Below the pieces are notes generated by a model that searched no databases, was not told where the DNA came from, and was given only the letters and a program-made list of their open reading frames with translations. A stretch of 64,000 nt of DNA from assembly GCA_002731275.1 (NCBI GenBank), contig PCBK01000012.1, positions 1 to 64,000 of the forward strand. Direction: 5' to 3'. Source of the DNA: Deltaproteobacteria bacterium. Lineage in GTDB: Bacteria > Myxococcota_C > UBA6777. A program made the translations under genes and the position numbers. Of this stretch, positions 33,975 through 60,915 are shown piece by piece. Each line of letters opens with the position of its first letter. The stretch's first letter is position 1.

Positions 33975-34003
33975 TTGACTTCGTCGATTAACTGGGATAT
34001 TCC
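33975..34003 (+). promoter_or_regulatory. candidate promoter of the Pls-like synthetase
   Basis: TTGACT (33975-33980), 17-bp spacer, TATTCC (33998-34003). The leader would be about 95 bases. The -10 is weak. Confidence 0.35.
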
Positions 34004-34103
34004 CCGTGAGAAGATCGCCATGGAGTGTGCAAACTGGCTCATACACTCCATTTACCAAAACTCGATATCGTTCTCCTGGAATGATGAGACGAAGATAACC
34101 AAC

Positions 34104-37100
34104 ATGAACACACAGCTTCCACAACAAAGTAATCTGCCTCTCTCCACATACGATGAAGAACATCTGGTCCTGCCAAGCCAGGGGGAAGAGAAACGTTCAA
34201 TCCTCTCATATGCTCCCGAAACCGATCCGATCTTATGGGAGCGAGGAGAGCGTCTCGACCACCTCTTTGAAGCCCGCTGCCAACAATTTGAAGAACAAGG
34301 CAGAGGCGATCACATCGCGCTGCAATTCGACGGCTTCTCCATAAGCTACACCGAATTAAATCGACGCGCCAATCAGCTCGCACATTTTCTGCAAAAACAA
34401 GGGATCCAACCAGGTGATCGCGTAGGTCACATTTTCAACAAAACACCAGAGACCTACGTCAGCTTGCTGGCTATCATGAAGGCCGGCGCGACCTTTTTGC
34501 CATTCGATCTGTCCACACCAGAAGAGAGGCTGCGATTTATCATCGGCGATGGAGAGCTCAAGGCGATCCTCTCCATGTCATCTTATGCCACAAAGTTCGC
34601 GTCACTCGACGTCGATATGTACTTGCTAGACGACCTCGCAGACCAAATCCAGGCAGAATCCGAAGCCCCCATCGAACACGGCGACAACCCCCCCGCAGAA
34701 GACAGCATCGCCTATATCATTTACACATCTGGTACAACAGGACACCCAAAAGGTGTCGCGATCAATCATTCGAGTATCTGTAACTTTGTGCGCGTTGCCG
34801 CCAAAGTATACGGCTACAAAGAAACAGATCGCATCTACCAAGGGATGACGTTGGCCTTTGACTTCTCCTTTGAAGAGGTCTTTGTCCCAATGATCGCAGG
34901 TTCAACGCTCGTGCCCTCCCCTGGCGGTCTGATGTTGGGTTGTGATTTGTGGGAGTTCCTCGACAAGATGAAAGTCACAGCGATGTGCTGTGTCCCCACG
35001 CTCCTCGCATCGATCAACGAAGACCTCGACGACCTCCGCCTGATCCTGCTCGGCGGTGAAGCCACTCCACAAGATCTCGTCGCACGATGGGACCGCCCAG
35101 ATCGTATCATTCTTAACACCTACGGTCCAACAGAGGCGACCATCACCGCGACCGCTGGTCCCATGTACGCTGACGAAGCTGTCACGATCGGAAAACCCCT
35201 CCCCACATATTCTATCGCGATCATCGACCCGGACGAACCCACACTCACTCCATTTGGTGAGCTGGGCGAGATCTGTATCGCTGGGATCGGACTCGCCGTC
35301 GGATACCTCAATCTCGAAGAGAAGACACAAGAGAAATTCATCCCAGACTTCCTGGACCTACCAAACAACCCGTCCAAACGCATTTACAGGACAGGTGACT
35401 TGGGTCGTATCACGGAAAATGGTGAGGTCGAATTTCTCGGACGCATCGACACACAGGTCAAACTCCGTGGATACAGAATCGAGCTGACGGAGATCGAGTC
35501 CGTCCTCCTCGAACACGACGCCATCGCACAGGCAGTCGTCGATGCCATCGAGGTCGAGCCCAATCACAAAGAGCTCGTCGCCTACTACACACTCAAACAA
35601 GACGTTGACCACGAAGACAGAGTTGTCGACCTCGACAGAGGTGAGGTCTTCTCTATGCTCTCACAACGTCTTCCCAAATACATGGTCCCGGCCTACATGG
35701 AACATCTCGAAGAGATCCCCATGCTGCCGAGCAACAAAGTCAACAGAAAAGTCCTCCCCAAACCCACAGGCAGCCGCCTTGTCGCGGTCGTCGAGAATGT
35801 CCGTGCGCCAGAGACTGCGCTCGAAGGCATCCTCGTCGAGGCGTTCAAAGACGCGCTCCAATTGCCAGAGGTCTCAACAGACGCTCACTTCTTCGAAGAA
35901 TTGGGTGCCAACTCTCTCGGCCTCGCACGCTTTTCGTCAACGGTCCGACAGGCTCACCCGGAGTTCACGCTCTCTATCCGTGACTGCTACCAACATCCAA
36001 GTATCCTCGATCTCGCAGCTCATCTCGAAGCACAACCAAAACACACCGCCCCCAAAAAAGAAGTCGCCGAACAATTTGTCCCTTCGCGCTTCTCCTACGT
36101 CATGACAGGGGTCATGCAGTACGCCTTTGGCACGCTGATGGGTTACGGAATGTTTTGGCTCGTCATCGAAGTCGCCCTTTGGCTGCTCGCTGTCTACGGA
36201 ACAACCGCGCTGTATGTTCGTGCGATGATCTTTGGGGTCGCATTTATGGCCGCTTCAGCCGTCGTCTCGGTCTCTGCCAAGTGGCTCCTGATTGGACGGT
36301 ACAAAGCCGAACAGATACCACTGTGGGGCTTGCGTTACTTCCGCTTTTGGATCGCCAAACAGTTCATCGGACTCAACCCCCTCGTCGCATTCAAAGGCAC
36401 CCCTGTTTATAACCTTTACCTCAACATGCTCGGCGCAGACGTCAGTCTCAGCGCTGTGATTGAATCCAAATCCGTTCCCTTCTGTACGGATCTGCTCAAA
36501 ATCGGACCCAACACGGTCTTGCGCAAAGATGTCTTGATGACGGGCTACAAAGTCGAAAACAACATCATGACACTCGGCCCGATCGAGATTGGCGAAGGTG
36601 TCTTCGTCGGCGAGGGCAGTGTGATCGACATCAACACCAAACTCGAAGACAACGCGCAACTTGGACACTCCTCTTCGGTACAAGAAGGGCAAGTCCTCGA
36701 AGCCAACAAGCAATACCACGGCTCTCCAGCGATTGAGACTGACACACAATACGCACAGCTCGACAACGAAGGCAGCGTCGTCCTGCGTGGGTTCCTCTAC
36801 GCCGCGATTCTCTCGCTTCCCGCGCTGCTCTTGCTGCCTCTGTCTTTGTTTATCGCGATCAACGTCGTTGAATACTTTTCACTCGTCCACCCCATCATCG
36901 CCTATATTGAGGCCTTCTCAGTCGCACCACTGCACATGATGCCCAGCTTTATGGCGATCACATCATCCCTCTACATCCTCGGTATTGCCGTCGCGATGGT
37001 CGCCATTCTCATCTGGCCTCGTTTGTACAACATGATCCTCAAACCTGGAAAGACTTACCGCCTGTATGGACTGCGTTACTTCTTCTTCCGCACAGTGCGT

Positions 37101-38219
37101 GGGCTCAGTAACTCCAAGTTCCTCAACACACTCTTTGGTGACAGCTCCCTGATCACCATGTACTTGCAAGCCATTGGCTACAACCTCAATCAGGTCATCC
37201 AAACAGGCTCCAACTTTGGGACCTCACAAAAACATGACACTCCCTTCCTCTGTGAGATCGGAACAGGAACGATGGTCTCTGATGGCCTCTCCATGATCAA
37301 CATCAACCAATCAGCGACCTCATTCCGACTCAAACACACAGCCCTCGAAGAAGAGTGCTTCCTCGGAAACGACATCCGCGTCCCACCTGAGTCCAAAATT
37401 GGCAGAAACTGCCTTCTCGCGACAAAAGTCCTCGTCCCAATCGATGGAAAAGTCCGCGAAGATGTTGGTCTGCTCGGTTCACCAGCCTTCGAGATCCCAC
37501 GCATTGTCGAACGAGATCTCGATCTTCTCGCACAGTATACTCCCGAGGAGAAAGCCCAAAACCTGCGCAAAAAGAACATGAGCAACTTGTTGACCGCGTC
37601 GCTCTACCTGTTCTCAAACTGGCTCTACATCACCGTCGCGATCACACTGACGATCTTCTCTTTTTACGCTTTCTTCACAGGTGGCTTCTTGTTGTGGCTT
37701 GGTGTCGCGACAAGCGCCCTCATCTACACCATTCTCCACTTCACCATCGCCGAACGCATCAGCATCGGCTTTGGACGCCTCGCGACAGGTATGTTCTCCA
37801 TTTATGACCCACGCTTCTGGAGCATCGAACGCTACTGGAAACTCAGCTCAACGCCTCTACCAAGTATGTTCAAAGGTACCCCCCTTCGTGGCATCCTCTG
37901 GCGTCTGCTCGGTGTCCGCGTAGGACGTATGTTGTTCGACGATGGCGCGATCATCACCGAACGAACACTCGTCTCTATCGGCGACCACTGTAACCTCAAT
38001 GAAGGTGTCAGTCTCCAAAGTCACTCCCTTGAAGACGGCGCGTTCAAATGCGAACCCATCGATATCGGCAATGGGTGCAACTTGATGCCTGGTTCATTCG
38101 TCCACTACGGCGTTGACATGCAAGATCGTGTTGTCCTTGAGCCCGACTCCTTCTTGATGAAAGGTGAGCGCCCTGAAGAAGCGTCTGTCTGGCAAGGAAA
38201 CCCCGCACAAAAACTCTAA
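34104..38219 (+). CDS. Pls/PosA-family non-ribosomal peptide synthetase (polylysine-synthetase architecture)
   Basis: 1371-residue membrane NRPS. Adenylation domain about 30-560: core motif TSGTTGHPKG at 208-217, the substrate-pocket FDFS with an Asp that anchors an alpha-amino group, YGPTEAT, and the A10 lysine in SNKVNR. Carrier domain with phosphopantetheine Ser604 in LGANSLG. After about 640 come three membrane-helix blocks (about 670-720, 895-975, 1165-1220), each followed by a hexapeptide-like left-handed helix stretch (GPNTVLRKDVLMTG, NCLLATKVLVPI, DHCNLNEGVSLQSH). This is the layout of epsilon-poly-L-lysine synthetase Pls and its TIGR02353 relatives, which join one amino acid iteratively at side-chain amines. 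The monomer (lysine, diaminobutyrate, ornithine or another) cannot be read by eye. Start 34104 lacks a strong ribosome site. Confidence 0.92.
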   Translation: MNTQLPQQSNLPLSTYDEEHLVLPSQGEEKRSILSYAPETDPILWERGERLDHLFEARCQQFEEQGRGDHIALQFDGFSISYTELNRRANQLAHFLQKQGIQPGDRVGHIFNKTPETYVSLLAIMKAGATFLPFDLSTPEERLRFIIGDGELKAILSMSSYATKFASLDVDMYLLDDLADQIQAESEAPIEHGDNPPAEDSIAYIIYTSGTTGHPKGVAINHSSICNFVRVAAKVYGYKETDRIYQGMTLAFDFSFEEVFVPMIAGSTLVPSPGGLMLGCDLWEFLDKMKVTAMCCVPTLLASINEDLDDLRLILLGGEATPQDLVARWDRPDRIILNTYGPTEATITATAGPMYADEAVTIGKPLPTYSIAIIDPDEPTLTPFGELGEICIAGIGLAVGYLNLEEKTQEKFIPDFLDLPNNPSKRIYRTGDLGRITENGEVEFLGRIDTQVKLRGYRIELTEIESVLLEHDAIAQAVVDAIEVEPNHKELVAYYTLKQDVDHEDRVVDLDRGEVFSMLSQRLPKYMVPAYMEHLEEIPMLPSNKVNRKVLPKPTGSRLVAVVENVRAPETALEGILVEAFKDALQLPEVSTDAHFFEELGANSLGLARFSSTVRQAHPEFTLSIRDCYQHPSILDLAAHLEAQPKHTAPKKEVAEQFVPSRFSYVMTGVMQYAFGTLMGYGMFWLVIEVALWLLAVYGTTALYVRAMIFGVAFMAASAVVSVSAKWLLIGRYKAEQIPLWGLRYFRFWIAKQFIGLNPLVAFKGTPVYNLYLNMLGADVSLSAVIESKSVPFCTDLLKIGPNTVLRKDVLMTGYKVENNIMTLGPIEIGEGVFVGEGSVIDINTKLEDNAQLGHSSSVQEGQVLEANKQYHGSPAIETDTQYAQLDNEGSVVLRGFLYAAILSLPALLLLPLSLFIAINVVEYFSLVHPIIAYIEAFSVAPLHMMPSFMAITSSLYILGIAVAMVAILIWPRLYNMILKPGKTYRLYGLRYFFFRTVRGLSNSKFLNTLFGDSSLITMYLQAIGYNLNQVIQTGSNFGTSQKHDTPFLCEIGTGTMVSDGLSMININQSATSFRLKHTALEEECFLGNDIRVPPESKIGRNCLLATKVLVPIDGKVREDVGLLGSPAFEIPRIVERDLDLLAQYTPEEKAQNLRKKNMSNLLTASLYLFSNWLYITVAITLTIFSFYAFFTGGFLLWLGVATSALIYTILHFTIAERISIGFGRLATGMFSIYDPRFWSIERYWKLSSTPLPSMFKGTPLRGILWRLLGVRVGRMLFDDGAIITERTLVSIGDHCNLNEGVSLQSHSLEDGAFKCEPIDIGNGCNLMPGSFVHYGVDMQDRVVLEPDSFLMKGERPEEASVWQGNPAQKL

Positions 38220-51132: not shown

Positions 51133-54027
51133 ATGAAACAGACCACCACACTTCTCCGCCGTTTCCTCTGGATATGTGCGTTTATGTGTTGCAGTCTCTG
51201 TATGCTTCACTGTGGAGCACCAGAGCGCTGCAAGGGTCGTGTTGGAGAGCAAACGCTGGATCCAAATGGAAGTCCGTGTCTCGTCGACTGCGAGTGTAAC
51301 AACCAGCTATACGAAGGTCACTGTCAAGACAATGTTTGTGTCGGAACACAAAGAGAGACATGCAACACAAAAGGTACAAAAAGACCTTGTCTCCTCACAC
51401 AAGCAGGAGCCAATGGCTGCACGAAAGGCACACAAGTCTGTGCCCCAAGTTACCTTTCGTCTTCCGTTTGGGGCGACTGCCAACCCATCCAAAGCACCCC
51501 AAGTGAATCGACACAGACGCTGTGTTTTGATGGACTTGACAACGACTGTGACGGAAAAGTCGATCTTGGAGACGCAGACTGTAAAGACTTTTGCAACCCA
51601 GGAGAGACCCGAGCCTGCTTTCGGTTCGCTGCCGCACAAAAAGGCGTTGGAGCTTGTAAAGCAGGCCTGCAAACCTGCGGTGAAGATAGACGCTGGCCAC
51701 AAAACTGCCCAGGCGAACAAGGACCGACACAGGAAACATGTGATGGCAAAGACAATGACTGCGATGGCAGCGTCGATGAACACTGCCCCTGTCCCTTGGG
51801 GGAAAGTCGTTCGTGTTTTAGTGGGTTGCCCTCTCAAGCAGACAAAGGTGAATGCAAACAAGGCCGCCAAACCTGCGAGACTAAGGGCTGGAGTGCCTGT
51901 GTAGGGCAGACCAAACCACGCGCAGAAAGATGCGATCAAAGAGACAACGATTGCGACGGACAGATCGACGAAGACAACCCCGAAGGTGGTGAACAGTGTC
52001 CCATCGCAGGCAAAAAAGGCCTGTGTGGACTTGGCACGCTTCGTTGTAAAGAAGGGAAACTTCTATGCCAAGAGCACTACACCCCCACACCAGAGACCTG
52101 CAACGGAAAAGATGATAATTGCGATGGCAAAGTCGATGAAAACAACCCAGAGAGCCAAAAACCCTGCCAAGTGAAAGGACAAAAAGGAGTCTGCGCCAGC
52201 GGAAGCACATTCTGCCAAGCAGGGACACTGCGCTGTATCCAACAACGCTCCGCGACACGAGAAGTCTGCAACGGAAAAGATGACGATTGTGACGGAGAAA
52301 CAGACGAGGGCATGAGTGCACAGCCTTGCTATACAGGAACCTCTGGCTGCCTTCAACGCTCCGATGGGAGCTACATCTGTGAAGCACCTTGTCAGGCAGG
52401 CACGCGCTCCTGTCAACAAGGCATCTGGTCTGCCTGTACAGGGCAAACACTCCCCGCCCAACAAGAAGCCTGCAATGGCAAAGATGACAATTGCAACGGC
52501 AAAGTCGATGAACGCTTTCCTCAACTTGGTCTCAACTGTTTTTCCGGACTCTATGCCTGTCGCACAGAAGGAACCTTCGTGTGTAGCGCCGACGGACTTG
52601 GTGTCGTCTGCAACGCAAAACCTCCTGCCCCCGTAGCAGAGTTGTGCAACAACAAAGACGATGACTGTGATGGTACTGTCGACAACAACATCAAACAAGT
52701 CGGCACTGTCTGTAACAACACACAAACAGGCTCACCCTGTAAACAAGGAACATACATCTGTAAAGGCGGCACACTCATCTGCAACGCCGTCCCACAGCAA
52801 GAGATATGTAATGGAAAAGATGACGACTGTGATGGACAGGTTGACGACATCCCTCCCCAACAATGTCCATACACAGGCCCCGCATACACACAAGACATCG
52901 GCAGTTGCAAAGCCGGCTTCCAGCTCTGTCAACAAGGAAAAATGACCGCCTGTACAGGCGAAGTCAGGCCCGCCTCTGGCGAACTATGTGGAAACAACAT
53001 AGACGACGACTGTAACGGGACCATCGACGACTTATGTAAGTGGCACTATACGCTCCCGATGAGCGCATCAAACAGCTCTTACTCCACCGCCAGTGTCATC
53101 ACGACAGACCAACACGACAATGTCTATGTCGCCGGTGAATACCAGGGTTCATTTACGATACAAAACAAAACCTACACCTCCAAGAGCACAAACCAACGAG
53201 AACTCTTCATCCTCAGCCTTGACCCAAGTGGGCGTATCCGTTGGGTCACGACGGTCTCAACCAACCCTGTTCGCCAAATCGGCGCGGCAACCATCTCCGT
53301 CTCTGTCAATGTCACATCCGGACAAGTCACCGTCAACGGACTTGTCTTTGGTAACACCACGCTTCAGCTCGCCAATAGCACACTCACTGTCACAGGTGGC
53401 TCAACAGCTTTTTCACTTGTGTTTGACAGCCAAACAGGCAAAGACATCAGCGCAAAGACAATCGCCAGTAACAACATTCCCTACAACGCAGATGCCACAG
53501 ACACGACATTGCACTCGTACTTCACAAGATCGTTCACCACCACGTATACACTTGGTCCGACCACTTACACCTCCAAGGGACAATCGGATCTCATGCTCCT
53601 CAAGCGAACCAACCTCGGCCAAATCGTTTGGGGATTTCACGTAGGAAGTCCTGTGCATGATACAAATTACGCCGTAGCGCTCGATCCCACAGAGAAAGAG
53701 GTCTTTTTTGCGCTCAATGCGAGCGGAAAAGTCAGCCTCTCCAACACACATACGATCGATTTGGGTCTACATAATAACAACCCAAACACCCCTGTCAAAG
53801 GAACATTGCTCGTCCGAGCAGAGACCACAACGGGCAACATCTTGGGCATCACAACCCTCAAAGCGCTCGACGCAAGCAGTGGCTTCAACCCAGGCTACTA
53901 CCGCTCACTCCACATCACAAAAGGAAATCTTTACGTTGTCGGTTCTCTTAGAGGAAAAGTCCAATCAGGGAGCCAGATCTTCTCCGCCCCCTCCACGAGA
54001 GCTTTTATCTGGAAGGAGAGCAAGTGA
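51133..54027 (+). CDS. MopE-repeat lipoprotein 1
   Basis: 964 residues, ATG 51133 with GGAG six bases upstream. Lipoprotein signal ending CMLHC. An N-terminal Cys-rich module (SPCLVDCECNNQLYEGHC ... WGDCQPIQ, about 35-125) precedes nine MopE-type repeats (about 128-638), each with a core such as CNGKDDDCDGQVDD and an outer Cys pair. The core looks like a D-x-D-x-D-G calcium loop with a central Cys; the MopE motif takes its name from the copper-binding surface protein of Methylococcus. From 639 on the chain is Cys-free and propeller-like (DNVYVAGEYQGSF, FILSLDPSGRIRW). First gene of a four-gene operon; its TGA overlaps the next GTG. Predicted surface protein; ligand unknown. Confidence 0.88.
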   Translation: MKQTTTLLRRFLWICAFMCCSLCMLHCGAPERCKGRVGEQTLDPNGSPCLVDCECNNQLYEGHCQDNVCVGTQRETCNTKGTKRPCLLTQAGANGCTKGTQVCAPSYLSSSVWGDCQPIQSTPSESTQTLCFDGLDNDCDGKVDLGDADCKDFCNPGETRACFRFAAAQKGVGACKAGLQTCGEDRRWPQNCPGEQGPTQETCDGKDNDCDGSVDEHCPCPLGESRSCFSGLPSQADKGECKQGRQTCETKGWSACVGQTKPRAERCDQRDNDCDGQIDEDNPEGGEQCPIAGKKGLCGLGTLRCKEGKLLCQEHYTPTPETCNGKDDNCDGKVDENNPESQKPCQVKGQKGVCASGSTFCQAGTLRCIQQRSATREVCNGKDDDCDGETDEGMSAQPCYTGTSGCLQRSDGSYICEAPCQAGTRSCQQGIWSACTGQTLPAQQEACNGKDDNCNGKVDERFPQLGLNCFSGLYACRTEGTFVCSADGLGVVCNAKPPAPVAELCNNKDDDCDGTVDNNIKQVGTVCNNTQTGSPCKQGTYICKGGTLICNAVPQQEICNGKDDDCDGQVDDIPPQQCPYTGPAYTQDIGSCKAGFQLCQQGKMTACTGEVRPASGELCGNNIDDDCNGTIDDLCKWHYTLPMSASNSSYSTASVITTDQHDNVYVAGEYQGSFTIQNKTYTSKSTNQRELFILSLDPSGRIRWVTTVSTNPVRQIGAATISVSVNVTSGQVTVNGLVFGNTTLQLANSTLTVTGGSTAFSLVFDSQTGKDISAKTIASNNIPYNADATDTTLHSYFTRSFTTTYTLGPTTYTSKGQSDLMLLKRTNLGQIVWGFHVGSPVHDTNYAVALDPTEKEVFFALNASGKVSLSNTHTIDLGLHNNNPNTPVKGTLLVRAETTTGNILGITTLKALDASSGFNPGYYRSLHITKGNLYVVGSLRGKVQSGSQIFSAPSTRAFIWKESK

Positions 54028-56885
54028 GAGACATGACCAGCCATCTAAAAGACACACCCCGCTGGACTTCCATTTTGGCAGTACTTGCGCTTTTGGGATT
54101 CGCCACCTTGGGTTGCAGCGCCCCGCCTCTCTGTCAGGGGCAGGCATCTTCGCTCTCCATCGACACCAACGGGAGTCCATGTACAAGACATTGTGAGTGC
54201 AACAACCAACGATTTGAAGGGCACTGTGTGCTCCAAGAAGGTCGTGAAACGGGCGTCTGTCAAGCAGTCTCACGGGATATATGCGAGACCAAAGGGAGCC
54301 GTCGTCCTTGCCTGCTCGCAGCTCCCACCACCACTTGTCGCGAAGGTGTCCAAATATGCCACCCCGATTACCTCAACACCGCACTATGGGGCGATTGCCA
54401 ACCTATGCAGACAACCCCTCGTGAGAGCGGCGCCCAGTGTTTCGATGGTCTCGACAATGACTGTGATGGCAAACAAGACCAAGGCGATCCTGATTGTAAA
54501 GACTTTTGTCAGGCAGGTAACACCAGAGCGTGTTTCCAAGGAGAACAAAGTCTTCTGAATATAGGAGAGTGCAAAGCTGGCGAGCAAAGTTGTCAAGAGG
54601 GCCGATGGGGTCCTTGCCTCTACCAAACCCTCCCGACCAGCGAACAATGTAACGGAAAAGATGATGATTGCGATGGCAGCGTCGATGAAGGATGTCCTTG
54701 TACACCGGGTCAGCAGCGCTCTTGTTACGAAGGTCCACAAGACACGCGCAATACAGGTGAATGCCAGGAAGGACTCCAGCAATGTGCAAATGAACAATGG
54801 AGCACCTGTCAGGGACAGGTGCTTCCCCGTGCTGAACGCTGTGATGACCAAGACAACGACTGCGATGGACAAGTCGATGAAGACAACCCCGGTGGTGGCG
54901 CCCCTTGTCATCTTTCGACTCATAAAGGTCCATGTGCTCTTGGACAACGACGTTGTCAGGCCGGTAGACTTTCATGTGTCCAAGTCACCTTTGCAGCACC
55001 AGAGACCTGCAACGGAAAAGATGACGACTGTGACGGCCTCATCGATGAAGACAACCCCGGTGGTGGCGATAATTGCTTCACAAATGCGCCCGGAGAATGT
55101 GCAAGTGGACAGTTGCTCTGCCAACAAGGAGCCCTCACCTGTCATCCCAAACGAACGGCACGTCAGGAAGTATGTGATGGCAAAGACAATGATTGCGACG
55201 GTCAAACAGATGAATCACTCACCAGACCCTGCTTTCCAGGGATTCGTGGGTGTCTCCAACAAGCCAATGGCCAATACACCTGTGAGGCTCCCTGCCAGGC
55301 GGGTTCACAACGTTGTGAGCAAGGGGCTTGGAGCACTTGCCAGGGTGCGTTGCTCCCACAAAAAGAAGAATGCAATGGAAAAGACGATGATTGCAACGGA
55401 AAAGTCGATGAGGACTTCGCGCTTCTTGGACAAACTTGTACAGTTGGCCGTTCTCTTTGCCAGAGAAAAGGAACATGGCTCTGTAACACCCAGGGGAACG
55501 GATTACGGTGCAGCGTCCAGGCCGCTCCAGCCCAACAAGAAGTCTGCAATGGACAAGACGACGATTGCGATGGCAGCACAGACGAAGACTTCCCACAAAA
55601 AGGACAGCCCTGCACACTCTCCTCATCCAACCAGACCTGTACAACAGGCATCACGATCTGCCAAAACGGCCAGCTCGACTGCTTTGCCTCCACCGCCAAG
55701 GAAGTCTGCAACCAACGTGATGATGATTGTAACGGTAAAATCGACGATATTCTCCCGCTCCCCTGCCCTTACAATGGCCCCTCCAACACATTAGGGGTCG
55801 GTGCCTGTAAAGCCGGCGCCAAGTTCTGCTTTAACGGCTCACTGACCACATGTCTCGGCGAATTTCTGCCCAAACCAAAAGAGGTCTGCGGTAACCAACT
55901 CGATGACAATTGCAATGGCTACCTCGAAGAGACTTGTCCGTGGGCGTTTGGCTTCGACAAAGCCTCTGGCACCCTCTACGACAATGTCTCCGGCGCTGAT
56001 GGATACATCTATGCGGCAGGTTCACTCAGCAACACGTTAACCCTCCAAGGCAAAACATACACCCCAACAGGCGCAAGCGACGCATTCATCATGAAGCTCT
56101 CCCCAACAGGCGCGATCGTCTGGTTCAAAATGCTCGGACTCTCTTCGACCCAAGCCAGCGCATACCAACTCTCTTTCGAGACGAAACAAAACAAAACATA
56201 TCTCAACGCAGAGCTCCATGTATACGCAAGTCAACCGTTCGATTTGACCCTTGGAGCTGACACATTCACACAGCGCCAGAAACTCTATGCCGCCGCACAA
56301 ATCGATACAAACACAGGTACGATCCTCTCAGGAAAAGCCATCCCACCCCCAACTCCTATCACATACTACACACGAACCGTCACCGTACAGGACACAAGCG
56401 GCGCGACATACACGATTGGTAACACCAACACCCCAATCACACATGGCACCTCCACATACACCCCAAGAGATTGGGACATCTATGTCACCAAAACCGACGC
56501 GCAAAAGAAACCCGTTTGGTTGTTTGGTATGGGTGGACGATATACAGACAACGGCTTTGACATCACACTCGATGCCCATGGTGATGTTTATATCAGCGGT
56601 GATATCTCAGGTCTCGTGAGTGTCGGCAACAAAACCATCGGACGCGTTGACTATCGCTCTCTGTTCGTTGTTAAGCTCGATGGAAACACGGGAAAACCTC
56701 TGTGGAGCACCTCTGCATCAGGCTCCTACTTCAACAGCATCGCATACGGGTTTATCAATGTCTCTATCCACCCAAGCGGCGACGTGATCGTTGGAGGCAA
56801 TGTCCACCAACAGCTCACCTTGCAACAAACGTCTCTATTTAACACGACACGAACCGCCTTTTTGGCGCGACTGCCGAAACCCTAA
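54024..56885 (+). CDS. MopE-repeat lipoprotein 2
   Basis: 953 residues. GTG 54024 is the start: AAGGAG lies five bases upstream and the codon overlaps the previous TGA (GTGA). Signal ends ATLGC. Same build as protein 1: Cys-rich module (SPCTRHCECNNQRFEGHC...), nine repeats between about 137 and 640 (CNGKDDDCDGLIDE and variants, several followed by a DNPGGG or DFP spacer), and a propeller-like end (GYIYAAGSLSNTLTLQG, DVYISGDISGLVSVG). The last repeat is altered (CNGYLEETCPW lacks the D-E). Its N-terminal module is nearly identical at DNA level to that of protein 3. Confidence 0.88.
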   Translation: MRDMTSHLKDTPRWTSILAVLALLGFATLGCSAPPLCQGQASSLSIDTNGSPCTRHCECNNQRFEGHCVLQEGRETGVCQAVSRDICETKGSRRPCLLAAPTTTCREGVQICHPDYLNTALWGDCQPMQTTPRESGAQCFDGLDNDCDGKQDQGDPDCKDFCQAGNTRACFQGEQSLLNIGECKAGEQSCQEGRWGPCLYQTLPTSEQCNGKDDDCDGSVDEGCPCTPGQQRSCYEGPQDTRNTGECQEGLQQCANEQWSTCQGQVLPRAERCDDQDNDCDGQVDEDNPGGGAPCHLSTHKGPCALGQRRCQAGRLSCVQVTFAAPETCNGKDDDCDGLIDEDNPGGGDNCFTNAPGECASGQLLCQQGALTCHPKRTARQEVCDGKDNDCDGQTDESLTRPCFPGIRGCLQQANGQYTCEAPCQAGSQRCEQGAWSTCQGALLPQKEECNGKDDDCNGKVDEDFALLGQTCTVGRSLCQRKGTWLCNTQGNGLRCSVQAAPAQQEVCNGQDDDCDGSTDEDFPQKGQPCTLSSSNQTCTTGITICQNGQLDCFASTAKEVCNQRDDDCNGKIDDILPLPCPYNGPSNTLGVGACKAGAKFCFNGSLTTCLGEFLPKPKEVCGNQLDDNCNGYLEETCPWAFGFDKASGTLYDNVSGADGYIYAAGSLSNTLTLQGKTYTPTGASDAFIMKLSPTGAIVWFKMLGLSSTQASAYQLSFETKQNKTYLNAELHVYASQPFDLTLGADTFTQRQKLYAAAQIDTNTGTILSGKAIPPPTPITYYTRTVTVQDTSGATYTIGNTNTPITHGTSTYTPRDWDIYVTKTDAQKKPVWLFGMGGRYTDNGFDITLDAHGDVYISGDISGLVSVGNKTIGRVDYRSLFVVKLDGNTGKPLWSTSASGSYFNSIAYGFINVSIHPSGDVIVGGNVHQQLTLQQTSLFNTTRTAFLARLPKP
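54285..54410 (+). repeat. near-identical DNA segment shared with MopE-repeat gene 3, copy 1
   Basis: Aligns without gaps to 57157-57282. I count about nine or ten mismatches, mostly third-position. The flanking coding sequences of the two genes are much less alike. Confidence 0.65.
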
Positions 56886-56916
56886 TCCTCAACAGACCAA
56901 AAGAAAGGCAAATGTC

Positions 56917-59900
56917 ATGCGTACACAGATGCGACAGTTCGCGACTCTCTCAGCGCTGCTTTGTTGTCTGTTCTTAGGACAGGCATGTAGCGCTGACAAC
57001 CAGTGTGAAGGGACACACAGCCAAACCTCAATCAACCCAAATGAAAGCCCATGCACAACATCTTGTGAGTGCAATAACCAACGATTCGAAGGACGTTGTG
57101 TGATCCAAGAAGGTCGCGAAATGGGCGTCTGTCAGGCAGTCTCACGGAATGTATGCGAGACGAAAGGGAGCCGTCGTCCTTGCCTGCTCGCAGCCCCCAC
57201 CACCACTTGTCGCGAAGGTATCCAAGTATGCCAACCTGATTACCTCAATACCGCACGGTGGGGCGATTGCCAACCTATCGAACAAGCGACCAACGAGTCC
57301 ACACAGGCAAAATGCTTTGATGGCATAGACAACGACTGTGACGGTGTTTTCGATCTAGGAGACCCTGACTGCAAAGACTTTTGCCGTCGCGGGACCACTC
57401 GTCCCTGCTTTCCAGGCGACGATACACAGCGAAATGTCGGTGAGTGCCGAGCTGGCATTCAAACATGCGAAGCAAACCAACGATGGGGAGAGTGCAAAGG
57501 AGCCATCTCTCCAACCACCGAACAGTGCGACAACAAAGACAACAACTGTGATGGCAGCGTCGATGAAGGATGCAGCTGCCAAAATGGAGACACTCGGACT
57601 TGTGGTGAAAACAATCAGCTTGGAGAGTGCAAAGCCGGGACACAACAATGTCAACAGGAGACATGGGGCCCTTGCACCAACGCCATCACGCCACAAGCAG
57701 AAGAGTGTGATGATAAAGACAACGACTGTGACGGACAAATCGACGAAGAAAACCCTGGCGGTGGAGGCATATGTGTCCTCCCACAACAAAAAGGAACGTG
57801 TTCACAAGGTGTACGTGTTTGCTCTGAAGGCTCACTCATATGCCAACAACAAACGTTCCCCCAAACCGAACAATGTGACGGGAAGGACAACGATTGTGAC
57901 GGCGAGATCGATGAAAATATCCCCGGACTTGGTGGAACATGCCAGACAGGTAAACAAGGTGTCTGTGGTGATGGGATCTTCACATGCCAAAATGGTGTCC
58001 CAACGTGCCAACAACAAACCCAAGCCACACAGGAACTATGCGACGGAAAAGACAATGATTGCGACGGCCAAGTCGACAACTTGAAGCGCTCCTGTTACCC
58101 AAGCACCAAGGGATGCACACGCGACAGTCAAGGCACCTATCTCTGCCAAACACCATGCCGTACAGGTGAAGACATCTGTATCAACGGTCAATGGAGTGGT
58201 TGCAAAGGAGCGATCGTACCAACCCAAGAGATCTGCAATCAAAAAGATGACGATTGTAACGGAACGATCGACGAAAACTTCCCTCTCAGAGGCACGACAT
58301 GTTCGATCACCACTCCCTGTCAAAGAACAGGCATCTGGAGCTGTAAAACCGACGGAAGTGGACTCTTCTGTAAAGACACGACAGGGAACTTACAGGAGAT
58401 CTGTAACGGCAAAGATGACGACTGTGACGGAGCCATTGATAACATTCCCCCTATCCCATGCCCATACAAAGGTCCAGCCAACACGGAGAACAAGGGAGGC
58501 TGCAAAGCTGGGACACAACAGTGTATCAACGGAACCTTCTCGCTGTGTTCAGGGGAAGTCCTTCCCCAAACCGAACGCTGTAATGGAAAAGATGACGACT
58601 GCAACGGAGTAATCGATAATATTCCAGCCAGGGTGTGCTACTCAAGCCAGACCGGCTGTGTCCTACAATCATCTGGAGGATATAAGTGTACGGCCCCTTG
58701 TCAAACGGGCACACAGAGTTGTCAACAAGGAACTTGGGGGGCGTGCAAAGGCGAGCTCCAACCCAGCCTTGAGCTTTGTGACAGCAAAGACAACGACTGC
58801 GATGGACTGGTCGATGAAGGTTGTAATTGGGTTGCAGCTCTCCCTATCGATGTCGGCGCCACATTCTTAGGCATGAACGCAGTCGGAGATCGTCAAGGAA
58901 ACACGTACATCATAGGCGGTATCAATGGCGATATGACACACAAAGGGACGACCACAAAGGTCAACAATGGCCTCTTTGGTGTCAAACTCGATCTCAAACG
59001 CAACATCGTCTGGACTATCACAGCGCAAGGGAACGCAAAGATCAAACGCATCTTCAAGCTCCAACTCGACACCAGCGGCAGTCAGGACATCCTTAGAATC
59101 TACGGTATTATCGACGTGGGAGCGAACGCTGCCAGTATCTCTTTTGGCAGCCACACCCTTAGCGTCAACATCGGCCAGCGTAGCTTCGTCGCGACACTCG
59201 ACCCAACGACAGGCCAATTCCTCTCTGCAAAGCTCGACTTTTACCACAGTACACGCTCATACTATACGTACTCCCCTACACTCGGAGGAGAATGGCACGC
59301 CCCTGGTATCGGTGGGGATATCTACGCCATTGGCACCCTACACGCCAACGTTACGAGGACATTTGGCACCATCCAGCTCACCTCAAAAGGCGGTACAGAC
59401 GGATACATTTACCGACAAGACAACCAATTCAAGACACCATGGGCCATCCAGTTAGGTTCGACAAGCAGTGGGGATGGTTTTGATACCCTCACGACGGATC
59501 AGGCAGGCGATCTGTACGTTGGCGGTGTCCTGAACACAACAGGCGCACTCGGCACCACAAACATCACAGTCCCAGGCACAGGCTTTACACCCAAACACCT
59601 CGTCGCCCGGCTTCACCGCGCGACGGGTGCACAGGCATGGGTGTCGACCTTTGTCGAAGAATATGGATTCGCAGCGATCACCGATATCTACGCAGACTCC
59701 AACAAAAAGCAGGTCCTCGTTGGCGGGCGATTTGCGAGTAAACTCACATACGGAAGCCAAGTCGTCACCAACCTCGGTGGCGAAGGAGGTTACCTCGCAC
59801 GTCTTGACTACACAACGGGCAATCTATTGTGGCTCAAAAAAATGTCCAACAACATCTTTACATCTTCTTCGCGCTTCGAACTCGGAGATATCTCTGTAGA

Positions 59901-60018
59901 TACACACAACAACGTACTCATCGCGGGTTGCTCCTCCTCAGCACGAAACTTCGACGGTACACAGGTCACATTCAACAAGACCTGCCAGGCCTTCGTCTGG
60001 CGATTTACGATGCCATAA
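56917..60018 (+). CDS. MopE-repeat lipoprotein 3
   Basis: 1033 residues from ATG 56917 (AAAGG eight bases upstream); the frame is open from 56791 but overlaps the preceding gene there. Lipoprotein signal ending LGQAC. N-terminal Cys-rich module as in protein 2, then nine repeats between about 131 and 637 (CDGKDNDCDGEIDE, CNQKDDDCNGTIDE and others), then a propeller-like domain (GNTYIIGGINGDMTH, GDLYVGGVLNTTGALG) about 70 residues longer than in its paralogues. A stray Cys pair (IAGCSSSARN ... KTCQAF) near the end is absent from the other two. Same operon, 31 bases after gene 2. Confidence 0.88.
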   Translation: MRTQMRQFATLSALLCCLFLGQACSADNQCEGTHSQTSINPNESPCTTSCECNNQRFEGRCVIQEGREMGVCQAVSRNVCETKGSRRPCLLAAPTTTCREGIQVCQPDYLNTARWGDCQPIEQATNESTQAKCFDGIDNDCDGVFDLGDPDCKDFCRRGTTRPCFPGDDTQRNVGECRAGIQTCEANQRWGECKGAISPTTEQCDNKDNNCDGSVDEGCSCQNGDTRTCGENNQLGECKAGTQQCQQETWGPCTNAITPQAEECDDKDNDCDGQIDEENPGGGGICVLPQQKGTCSQGVRVCSEGSLICQQQTFPQTEQCDGKDNDCDGEIDENIPGLGGTCQTGKQGVCGDGIFTCQNGVPTCQQQTQATQELCDGKDNDCDGQVDNLKRSCYPSTKGCTRDSQGTYLCQTPCRTGEDICINGQWSGCKGAIVPTQEICNQKDDDCNGTIDENFPLRGTTCSITTPCQRTGIWSCKTDGSGLFCKDTTGNLQEICNGKDDDCDGAIDNIPPIPCPYKGPANTENKGGCKAGTQQCINGTFSLCSGEVLPQTERCNGKDDDCNGVIDNIPARVCYSSQTGCVLQSSGGYKCTAPCQTGTQSCQQGTWGACKGELQPSLELCDSKDNDCDGLVDEGCNWVAALPIDVGATFLGMNAVGDRQGNTYIIGGINGDMTHKGTTTKVNNGLFGVKLDLKRNIVWTITAQGNAKIKRIFKLQLDTSGSQDILRIYGIIDVGANAASISFGSHTLSVNIGQRSFVATLDPTTGQFLSAKLDFYHSTRSYYTYSPTLGGEWHAPGIGGDIYAIGTLHANVTRTFGTIQLTSKGGTDGYIYRQDNQFKTPWAIQLGSTSSGDGFDTLTTDQAGDLYVGGVLNTTGALGTTNITVPGTGFTPKHLVARLHRATGAQAWVSTFVEEYGFAAITDIYADSNKKQVLVGGRFASKLTYGSQVVTNLGGEGGYLARLDYTTGNLLWLKKMSNNIFTSSSRFELGDISVDTHNNVLIAGCSSSARNFDGTQVTFNKTCQAFVWRFTMP
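57157..57282 (+). repeat. near-identical DNA segment shared with MopE-repeat gene 2, copy 2
   Basis: Partner of 54285-54410, encoding the ETKGSRRPCLLAAPTTTCRE stretch in both genes. Confidence 0.65.
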
Positions 60019-60054
60019 GGCCTTCAAACAAATACAAAAACCCACGGATAGCTT

Positions 60055-60915
60055 ATGGAACACCTCACAAACTGGAGCGCCTTCTACGTCAAACATATCG
60101 AAGCGCTCGAACTCGAACGCCTCTATCTCTACCACGGACTCGCGCTGTTCGCCTCCTTTGTCCTCTTTGTCCTCTTTATCACAAAGTGCATGAAGACACC
60201 TGACAACCTCCTGTCAGCCGACAAAGAAAACATGCAAGCGACAGAAGAAACACAAGAGACGGCGAGCAGGAAGCCACCGGAGCGCTTCTTCATCTTCTGG
60301 CGACTGTTTGTCACCCTCTACGTCCTTGCCTTCTCCTGGCTCTTTTGGATCAGCGTTGTGTACACAGCAAAGCTCAAGTTCTTCCCCGCCAATGTAGGCA
60401 GTGTCCTCGCGAGTGTGTTGTCCTTTTTACCTCTCCTGACGCTCGCCATCACTTTCAAAAGTCTCGAAGCAAGATTGATCCCAACGCGCGCCCAAAGAGC
60501 GCAATGTGTCGATGGTTCAGTCAAGCGTCCTCCCAAAGTTCCCGGCCTCCTCCAAATCGAAAACAAACACAAAGGCTGCGCTGCGTTGTTATTTGTGATT
60601 GGGTTCTTTGGTTTTGTCGGTCTCAACGGAGGGTTGATGTCTTATGCTGTCGTCACAGTCAGCGCCCTTTGGGAACATCCACAGGTCGTCCAAGGACAGG
60701 TCATCAAAAAACGCACAGGCGACCGCGCCTCCACACACATCACCTTGCAAGTCAAACGTGCTCGATTCCTCACCCCCAGCGGATTGGGTTCTCATGTGAT
60801 GCTTCCAAAACAGTCAGAGTTCCGCGTCCCCAAAGCGATCTACAAACGTGTCCGATACAAAGAAACGCTCACCCTCGTCGTCTCTTCGGATGAGGGCGTC
60901 ATCCTCTTGCCCTAG
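60055..60915 (+). CDS. multi-spanning membrane protein, last gene of the MopE operon
   Basis: 286 residues starting 36 bases after MopE-repeat gene 3. Hydrophobic helices at about 25-45, 82-108, 113-138 and 182-212. Between helices 1 and 2 is a polar, acidic stretch. The C-terminal 75 residues (VVQGQVIKKRTGDRASTHITLQV...) form a predicted soluble beta-domain. I do not recognise a family. Its place suggests a membrane partner for the three lipoproteins or only shared transcription. Confidence 0.7.
   Translation: MEHLTNWSAFYVKHIEALELERLYLYHGLALFASFVLFVLFITKCMKTPDNLLSADKENMQATEETQETASRKPPERFFIFWRLFVTLYVLAFSWLFWISVVYTAKLKFFPANVGSVLASVLSFLPLLTLAITFKSLEARLIPTRAQRAQCVDGSVKRPPKVPGLLQIENKHKGCAALLFVIGFFGFVGLNGGLMSYAVVTVSALWEHPQVVQGQVIKKRTGDRASTHITLQVKRARFLTPSGLGSHVMLPKQSEFRVPKAIYKRVRYKETLTLVVSSDEGVILLP

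Follow-up and report, generated by a model that had tools for sequence, protein, structure and literature searches.

A local cluster of three old MopE-repeat paralogs in a large, fast-rearranging lipoprotein family of Deltaproteobacteria bacterium

Three successive genes (A, B and C) of Deltaproteobacteria bacterium, followed by a gene for a membrane protein (M), are located in a 64,000-nucleotide stretch of contig PCBK01000012.1, here termed the window. The proteins share one plan: a signal peptide/lipobox, a cysteine-rich head, an array of nine modules with the MopE motif and a C-terminal propeller-like domain. A, B and C are old paralogs clustered at one locus and belong to a very large, fast-rearranging lipoprotein family. 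We consider it fairly probable that the three are paralogous envelope lipoproteins, in which a nine-module, disulfide-linked stalk serves as a stiff spacer for a propeller tip, and that they belong to a lineage-specific family that recombines. The N-terminal lipid anchor and the head would be followed by nine modules in a chain. Every module would contain three or four disulfides and an acidic loop, a probable Ca2+ site. As the stiff spacer, this chain would display a five- or six-bladed propeller of the SBBP type as a binding tip, and recombination within the very large family would exchange heads, tips and stalks of different length. MopE repeats carry a copper-binding annotation; the sequence here points to a spacer of variable length, stabilized by disulfides and probably by calcium, with interchangeable tips. 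This reading would correct the annotation and provide a model of a protein family that is among the largest in a poorly sampled lineage.

The features of the locus, in window coordinates, are as follows.
51133..54027, + strand: gene A, 964 aa; lipoprotein with head domain, nine MopE modules and a five-unit SBBP-type propeller
51523..53031, + strand: MopE module array of A, nine motifs (motif pattern and Pfam)
52687..52848, + strand: module 8 of A, counterpart absent from C (module score matrices)
53032..54024, + strand: C-terminal propeller of A (profile matches, blade HMM)
54024..56885, + strand: gene B, 953 aa; plan as in A, nine modules, five-unit propeller; GTG start
54114..54431, + strand: head domain of B, from the putative lipid Cys (TLG-C); 73% protein identity to the head of C
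54438..55934, + strand: MopE module array of B (motif pattern and Pfam; residues 168-541 modelled)
55587..55748, + strand: module 8 of B, counterpart absent from C (module score matrices)
55932..56882, + strand: C-terminal propeller of B (AlphaFold2 model, Z 28 to the CylK propeller 7ron)
56917..60018, + strand: gene C, 1033 aa; plan as in A and B, nine modules (one apparently lost and one gained relative to A and B), six-unit propeller
58621..58818, + strand: ninth module of C, of module-6 type (module score matrices)
58819..60015, + strand: C-terminal propeller of C, with one blade unit more than those of A and B (blade HMM)
60055..60915, + strand: gene M, 286 aa; approximately four hydrophobic segments and a C-terminal domain of approximately 80 aa; no detectable homolog

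An earlier note on this DNA described three tandem lipoprotein genes of one plan, then a membrane protein, and its coordinates and gaps (31 bases between B and C, 36 between C and M) were reproduced. It also described a GTGA overlap of A and B. The GTG start of B does overlap the stop of A in this way, but there is an in-frame ATG at 54033, nine bases after the GTG, with which the overlap disappears; the overlap thus depends on the start chosen for B. M may be co-transcribed with C.

The same note envisaged the four genes as a dedicated system, with M travelling beside MopE-repeat genes in relatives, and this does not hold. In the collection searched, the source phylum consists of five genomes of one family, including this one. 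M has no homolog in any of the four other family genomes (0/4), and 55 genomes from other families yielded none at E<=1e-3; a search of 195 genomes from a different phylum gave a single match (E 0.007, G125, inside a frame of 3845 aa), which was taken as chance. Orthologs of the A-B-C propellers were also not found in the family, scores being 459–535 bits within the cluster and at most 85 elsewhere. A LysR-methyltransferase pair upstream of A-B-C-M is conserved in genome G003, and no MopE gene was found near it there within the ~14 kb fetched on the LysR side. M was therefore rejected as a conserved partner of MopE genes for want of a homolog in relatives and, as far as these searches indicate, is not part of a conserved unit.

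The MopE arrays are well defined. Nine motifs are found by pattern in each of A, B and C, and Pfam finds nine PF11617 (Cu-binding_MopE) stretches in each; scores of 134.9, 122.7 and 116.2 bits, respectively, are well over the curated gathering cut-off of 27 and far beyond chance. The motif is an acidic loop, C-[ND]-G-x-D-[DN]-D-C-[DN]-G-x-x-D-E, several positions of which are invariant across the 27 motifs. In contrast to the PF11617 proteins, the motif here is only the last third of a module of ~55–70 aa with six or eight cysteines, and there is no copper domain and almost no histidine.

For a comparison of the modules, the proteins were cut at the motif and all module pairs were scored. A1–A9 pair consecutively with B1–B9, the assignment being less sharp for A7/A8 and B7/B8. 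C1–C6 correspond in sequence to the first six modules of A and B, C7 is closest to B7, with A7 and A8 about equally near, and C8 matches A9 and B9. C9 scores 201, 199 and 190 to A6, B6 and C6, as against 105 and 70 to A9 and B9. The simplest reading is that C is without module 8 and has gained a module-6-type copy at its end. Its count of nine would then result from one loss and one gain, and the nine modules of C differ from those of A and B. Third-position identity is ~30–50% for most module pairs, which argues that the duplications are old. The exception is the first unit of B and C, where 56% third-position identity (30–44% in the other B/C units), together with 73% nucleotide identity over 550 bases, suggests a later exchange.

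Nine was also considered as a functional repeat count, fixed in all three proteins as the earlier note proposed. It was rejected on the differing modules of C and on the family at large. The 44 complete MopE open reading frames elsewhere in this genome have 3 to 27 motifs, tandem neighbours often differ in number (9/7, 10/15, 8/3), and open reading frames in other genomes have 4–50. An orthologous pair at the same flanks in two genomes of one genus (G002 and G004) is ~95% identical over the first 800 residues; past residue ~800 one module is lost in one of the two and the remaining C-terminus is divergent. Identity falls abruptly from ~95% to ~40%, which marks a C-terminal swap. Free variation of repeat number among close strains had been named as evidence that would count against a fixed nine; changes do take place between close species, and were seen on this other orthologous pair rather than on A, B and C.

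The family is very large. First-look PF11617 candidates number 351–993 in the five genomes of the phylum, as opposed to at most 74 in the other genomes searched; reports on MopE-repeat expansions were not found in the open-access literature. In this genome, the array of many MopE proteins is followed by a C-terminal propeller of the NHL, WD40 or SBBP class. The NHL- and WD40-tipped MopE lipoproteins of this genome and the family resemble A, B and C in having a MopE array, often the same head, a C-terminal propeller and, in some cases, a tandem triplet arrangement. They differ in propeller class and motif number (3–27), and no M gene was found. The cysteine-rich head is present in all five family genomes, with 67 copies in total, 42 of them in this genome. 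Two other tandem triplets of head proteins were found: one with NHL tips, the third gene being cut by the contig end (G001:C46, L061/L222), and one with two motifs in each protein and Cys-rich tails (G002:C37, L219).

The lipoboxes are MLH-C in A, TLG-C in B and GQA-C in C. Those of B and C fit the canonical form, and that of A is non-canonical at −1; its xxH-C form is shared by four further MopE lipoproteins encoded in this genome. The lipid Cys of A would be Cys27. A, B and C are probably lipid-anchored and probably cell-envelope lipoproteins of the outer membrane, and they may be exposed at the surface. The proposal of a surface receptor set is supported as far as it concerns paralogous cell-envelope lipoproteins with propeller ends; the receptor and surface part stays plausible.

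Profile searches with the tails hit CylK and designed SBBP propellers. An AlphaFold2 model of the B tail is confident (mean pLDDT 90.3, pTM 0.88), and superimposes on the CylK propeller 7ron (Z 28, 278 residues aligned, 2.4 A); the next structural match other than CylK has Z 18.5. An HMM built from the blades of A, B and C themselves detects blade-like units, some weakly: five each in A and B, and six in C. Model and blade units together indicate an SBBP-type propeller fold, with the Pfam SBBP profile itself below its cut-off. CylK has seven blades, and the five-blade model of B fits it surprisingly well at 2.4 A, so that closure of the predicted five-blade ring is uncertain. The tails also show weak profile similarity (E 1e-5 to 1e-11) to the Leptospira LipL53 family (NF047494); LipL53 scores of 23.7, 43.8 and 26.4 bits for A, B and C fall far short of the equivalog cut-off of 400. 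The tails of A, B and C are only 25–29% identical to one another. These domains had been described as propeller-like and Cys-free. A propeller is indeed predicted, but the domains of A and B each have a single Cys at their start, that of C has three (two in its last blade), and ‘nearly Cys-free’ is the better term.

The motif is named after MopE, and high PF11617 scores make it natural to think of a dedicated surface system for copper binding or metal uptake as in Methylococcus, with M as membrane partner. There are further resemblances to Methylococcus MopE and Methylomicrobium CorA: an extracytoplasmic location and the presence of calcium in the MopE and CorA structures (PMC3912023), where a calcium site is situated beside the copper (PMC3423442, PMC3912023). 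However, Cu(I) in these proteins is bound by two His and a kynurenine of the C-terminal MopE* domain, the only part in which CorA resembles MopE (PMC3423442, PMC3912023), and PF11617 spans only a small region of MopE and CorA (PMC6189053). PDB searches with B, with a tail profile and with an array profile found no relative of MopE*. The arrays, ~500 residues with 55–57 Cys, contain two His in A, three in B and none in C, and a site of two His with Trp/kynurenine is absent from them. A copper site in the arrays was rejected on these two grounds, near-absence of His and no MopE* domain, and with it the copper binding proposed earlier. As M, in addition, is without homologs in relatives, a copper system is very improbable.

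Redox-active cysteines, another early suggestion, fare no better, as no CxxC is found in the arrays. The number of cysteines after the presumed lipid Cys is even in A (68), B (68) and C (72). Of 35 further MopE lipoproteins encoded in this genome, 29 also have an even number and six an odd one (p=6e-5), a count weakened by the choice of the lipid Cys of these 35 by eye from an N-terminal listing. Even counts, the lack of CxxC and the scarcity of His thus favour disulfide pairing over a redox pair or a copper site of the MopE type, and would fit full pairing with three or four disulfides per module. The use of calcium by these lipoproteins is retained from the earlier note as probable: the acidic motif suggests that the loop binds Ca2+. 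A consensus peptide gave a weak match, a single hit at E 0.017, to the calcium loop of the LDL-A module. A model of the array of B (residues 168-541; mean pLDDT 88, pTM 0.46) is locally confident with weak inter-module order, as would be expected of a string of beads. The array model has no PDB match below a Foldseek E of 0.001 (best 0.15) and a best VIA Z of 2.2; these searches would point to neither a new nor a known fold.

Two further explanations concern the tips. As the closest structural match is the propeller of an enzyme, A, B and C might be periplasmic or secreted enzymes with a catalytic propeller as in CylK, the MopE array being only a linker. Yet the CylK active site depends on Tyr473 and on Arg105, which its own N-terminal domain supplies (PMC8916777), the low mutual identity of the three tails also counts against this reading, and the MopE arrays of this genome precede propellers of several unrelated classes, a pattern that fits binding better than one chemistry. 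We find a catalytic role quite improbable; ligand binding by the tip is suggested instead. The other explanation is a recombining repertoire for cell–cell or kin recognition, where the diversity of tips and stalks is itself selected. The family size, the tandem paralogs, the C-terminal swap between congeners and the local similarity of the B and C heads are in its favour, but large paralogous families arise without recognition roles too, and we consider it unlikely. The spacer-and-tip reading can also be extended to a lineage-wide display, in which a constant lipid-anchored head, a calcium/disulfide stalk of variable length and exchangeable propeller tips of several classes, shuffled by recombination, would make up a diversified repertoire for recognition or adhesion, and the MopE module would be a calcium-disulfide module without a solved counterpart. 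This extension is possible, if rather doubtful.

Several observations on related loci may be added. In the NHL-tipped triplet (L061 9926-21379, = L222), two genes alternate propeller, two MopE modules and propeller again, and a Ser/Thr-kinase-like gene is directly upstream; L061 (JALTMC) is within G001:C46, and relatives are deposited as Deltaproteobacteria/Myxococcales MAGs. L168 5446-9948 encodes a 1501-aa lipoprotein with MopE motifs, ten STIG1-like stretches (PF04885) and one SBBP stretch. The contig pairs G000:C163/C194, C50/C197, C8/C191 and C178/C193 carry identical-looking MopE, SBBP or head matches; recent copying or duplication in the assembly may explain them (the contamination estimate is 5.5%). 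In the window itself, positions 33975-38219 encode a 1414-aa protein that resembles a fusion of an AMP-binding/carrier domain with membrane and hexapeptide-repeat parts. Finally, L173 (G000:C7) has two adjoining MopE-NHL genes whose motifs are identically spaced, which looks like a recent tandem duplication.
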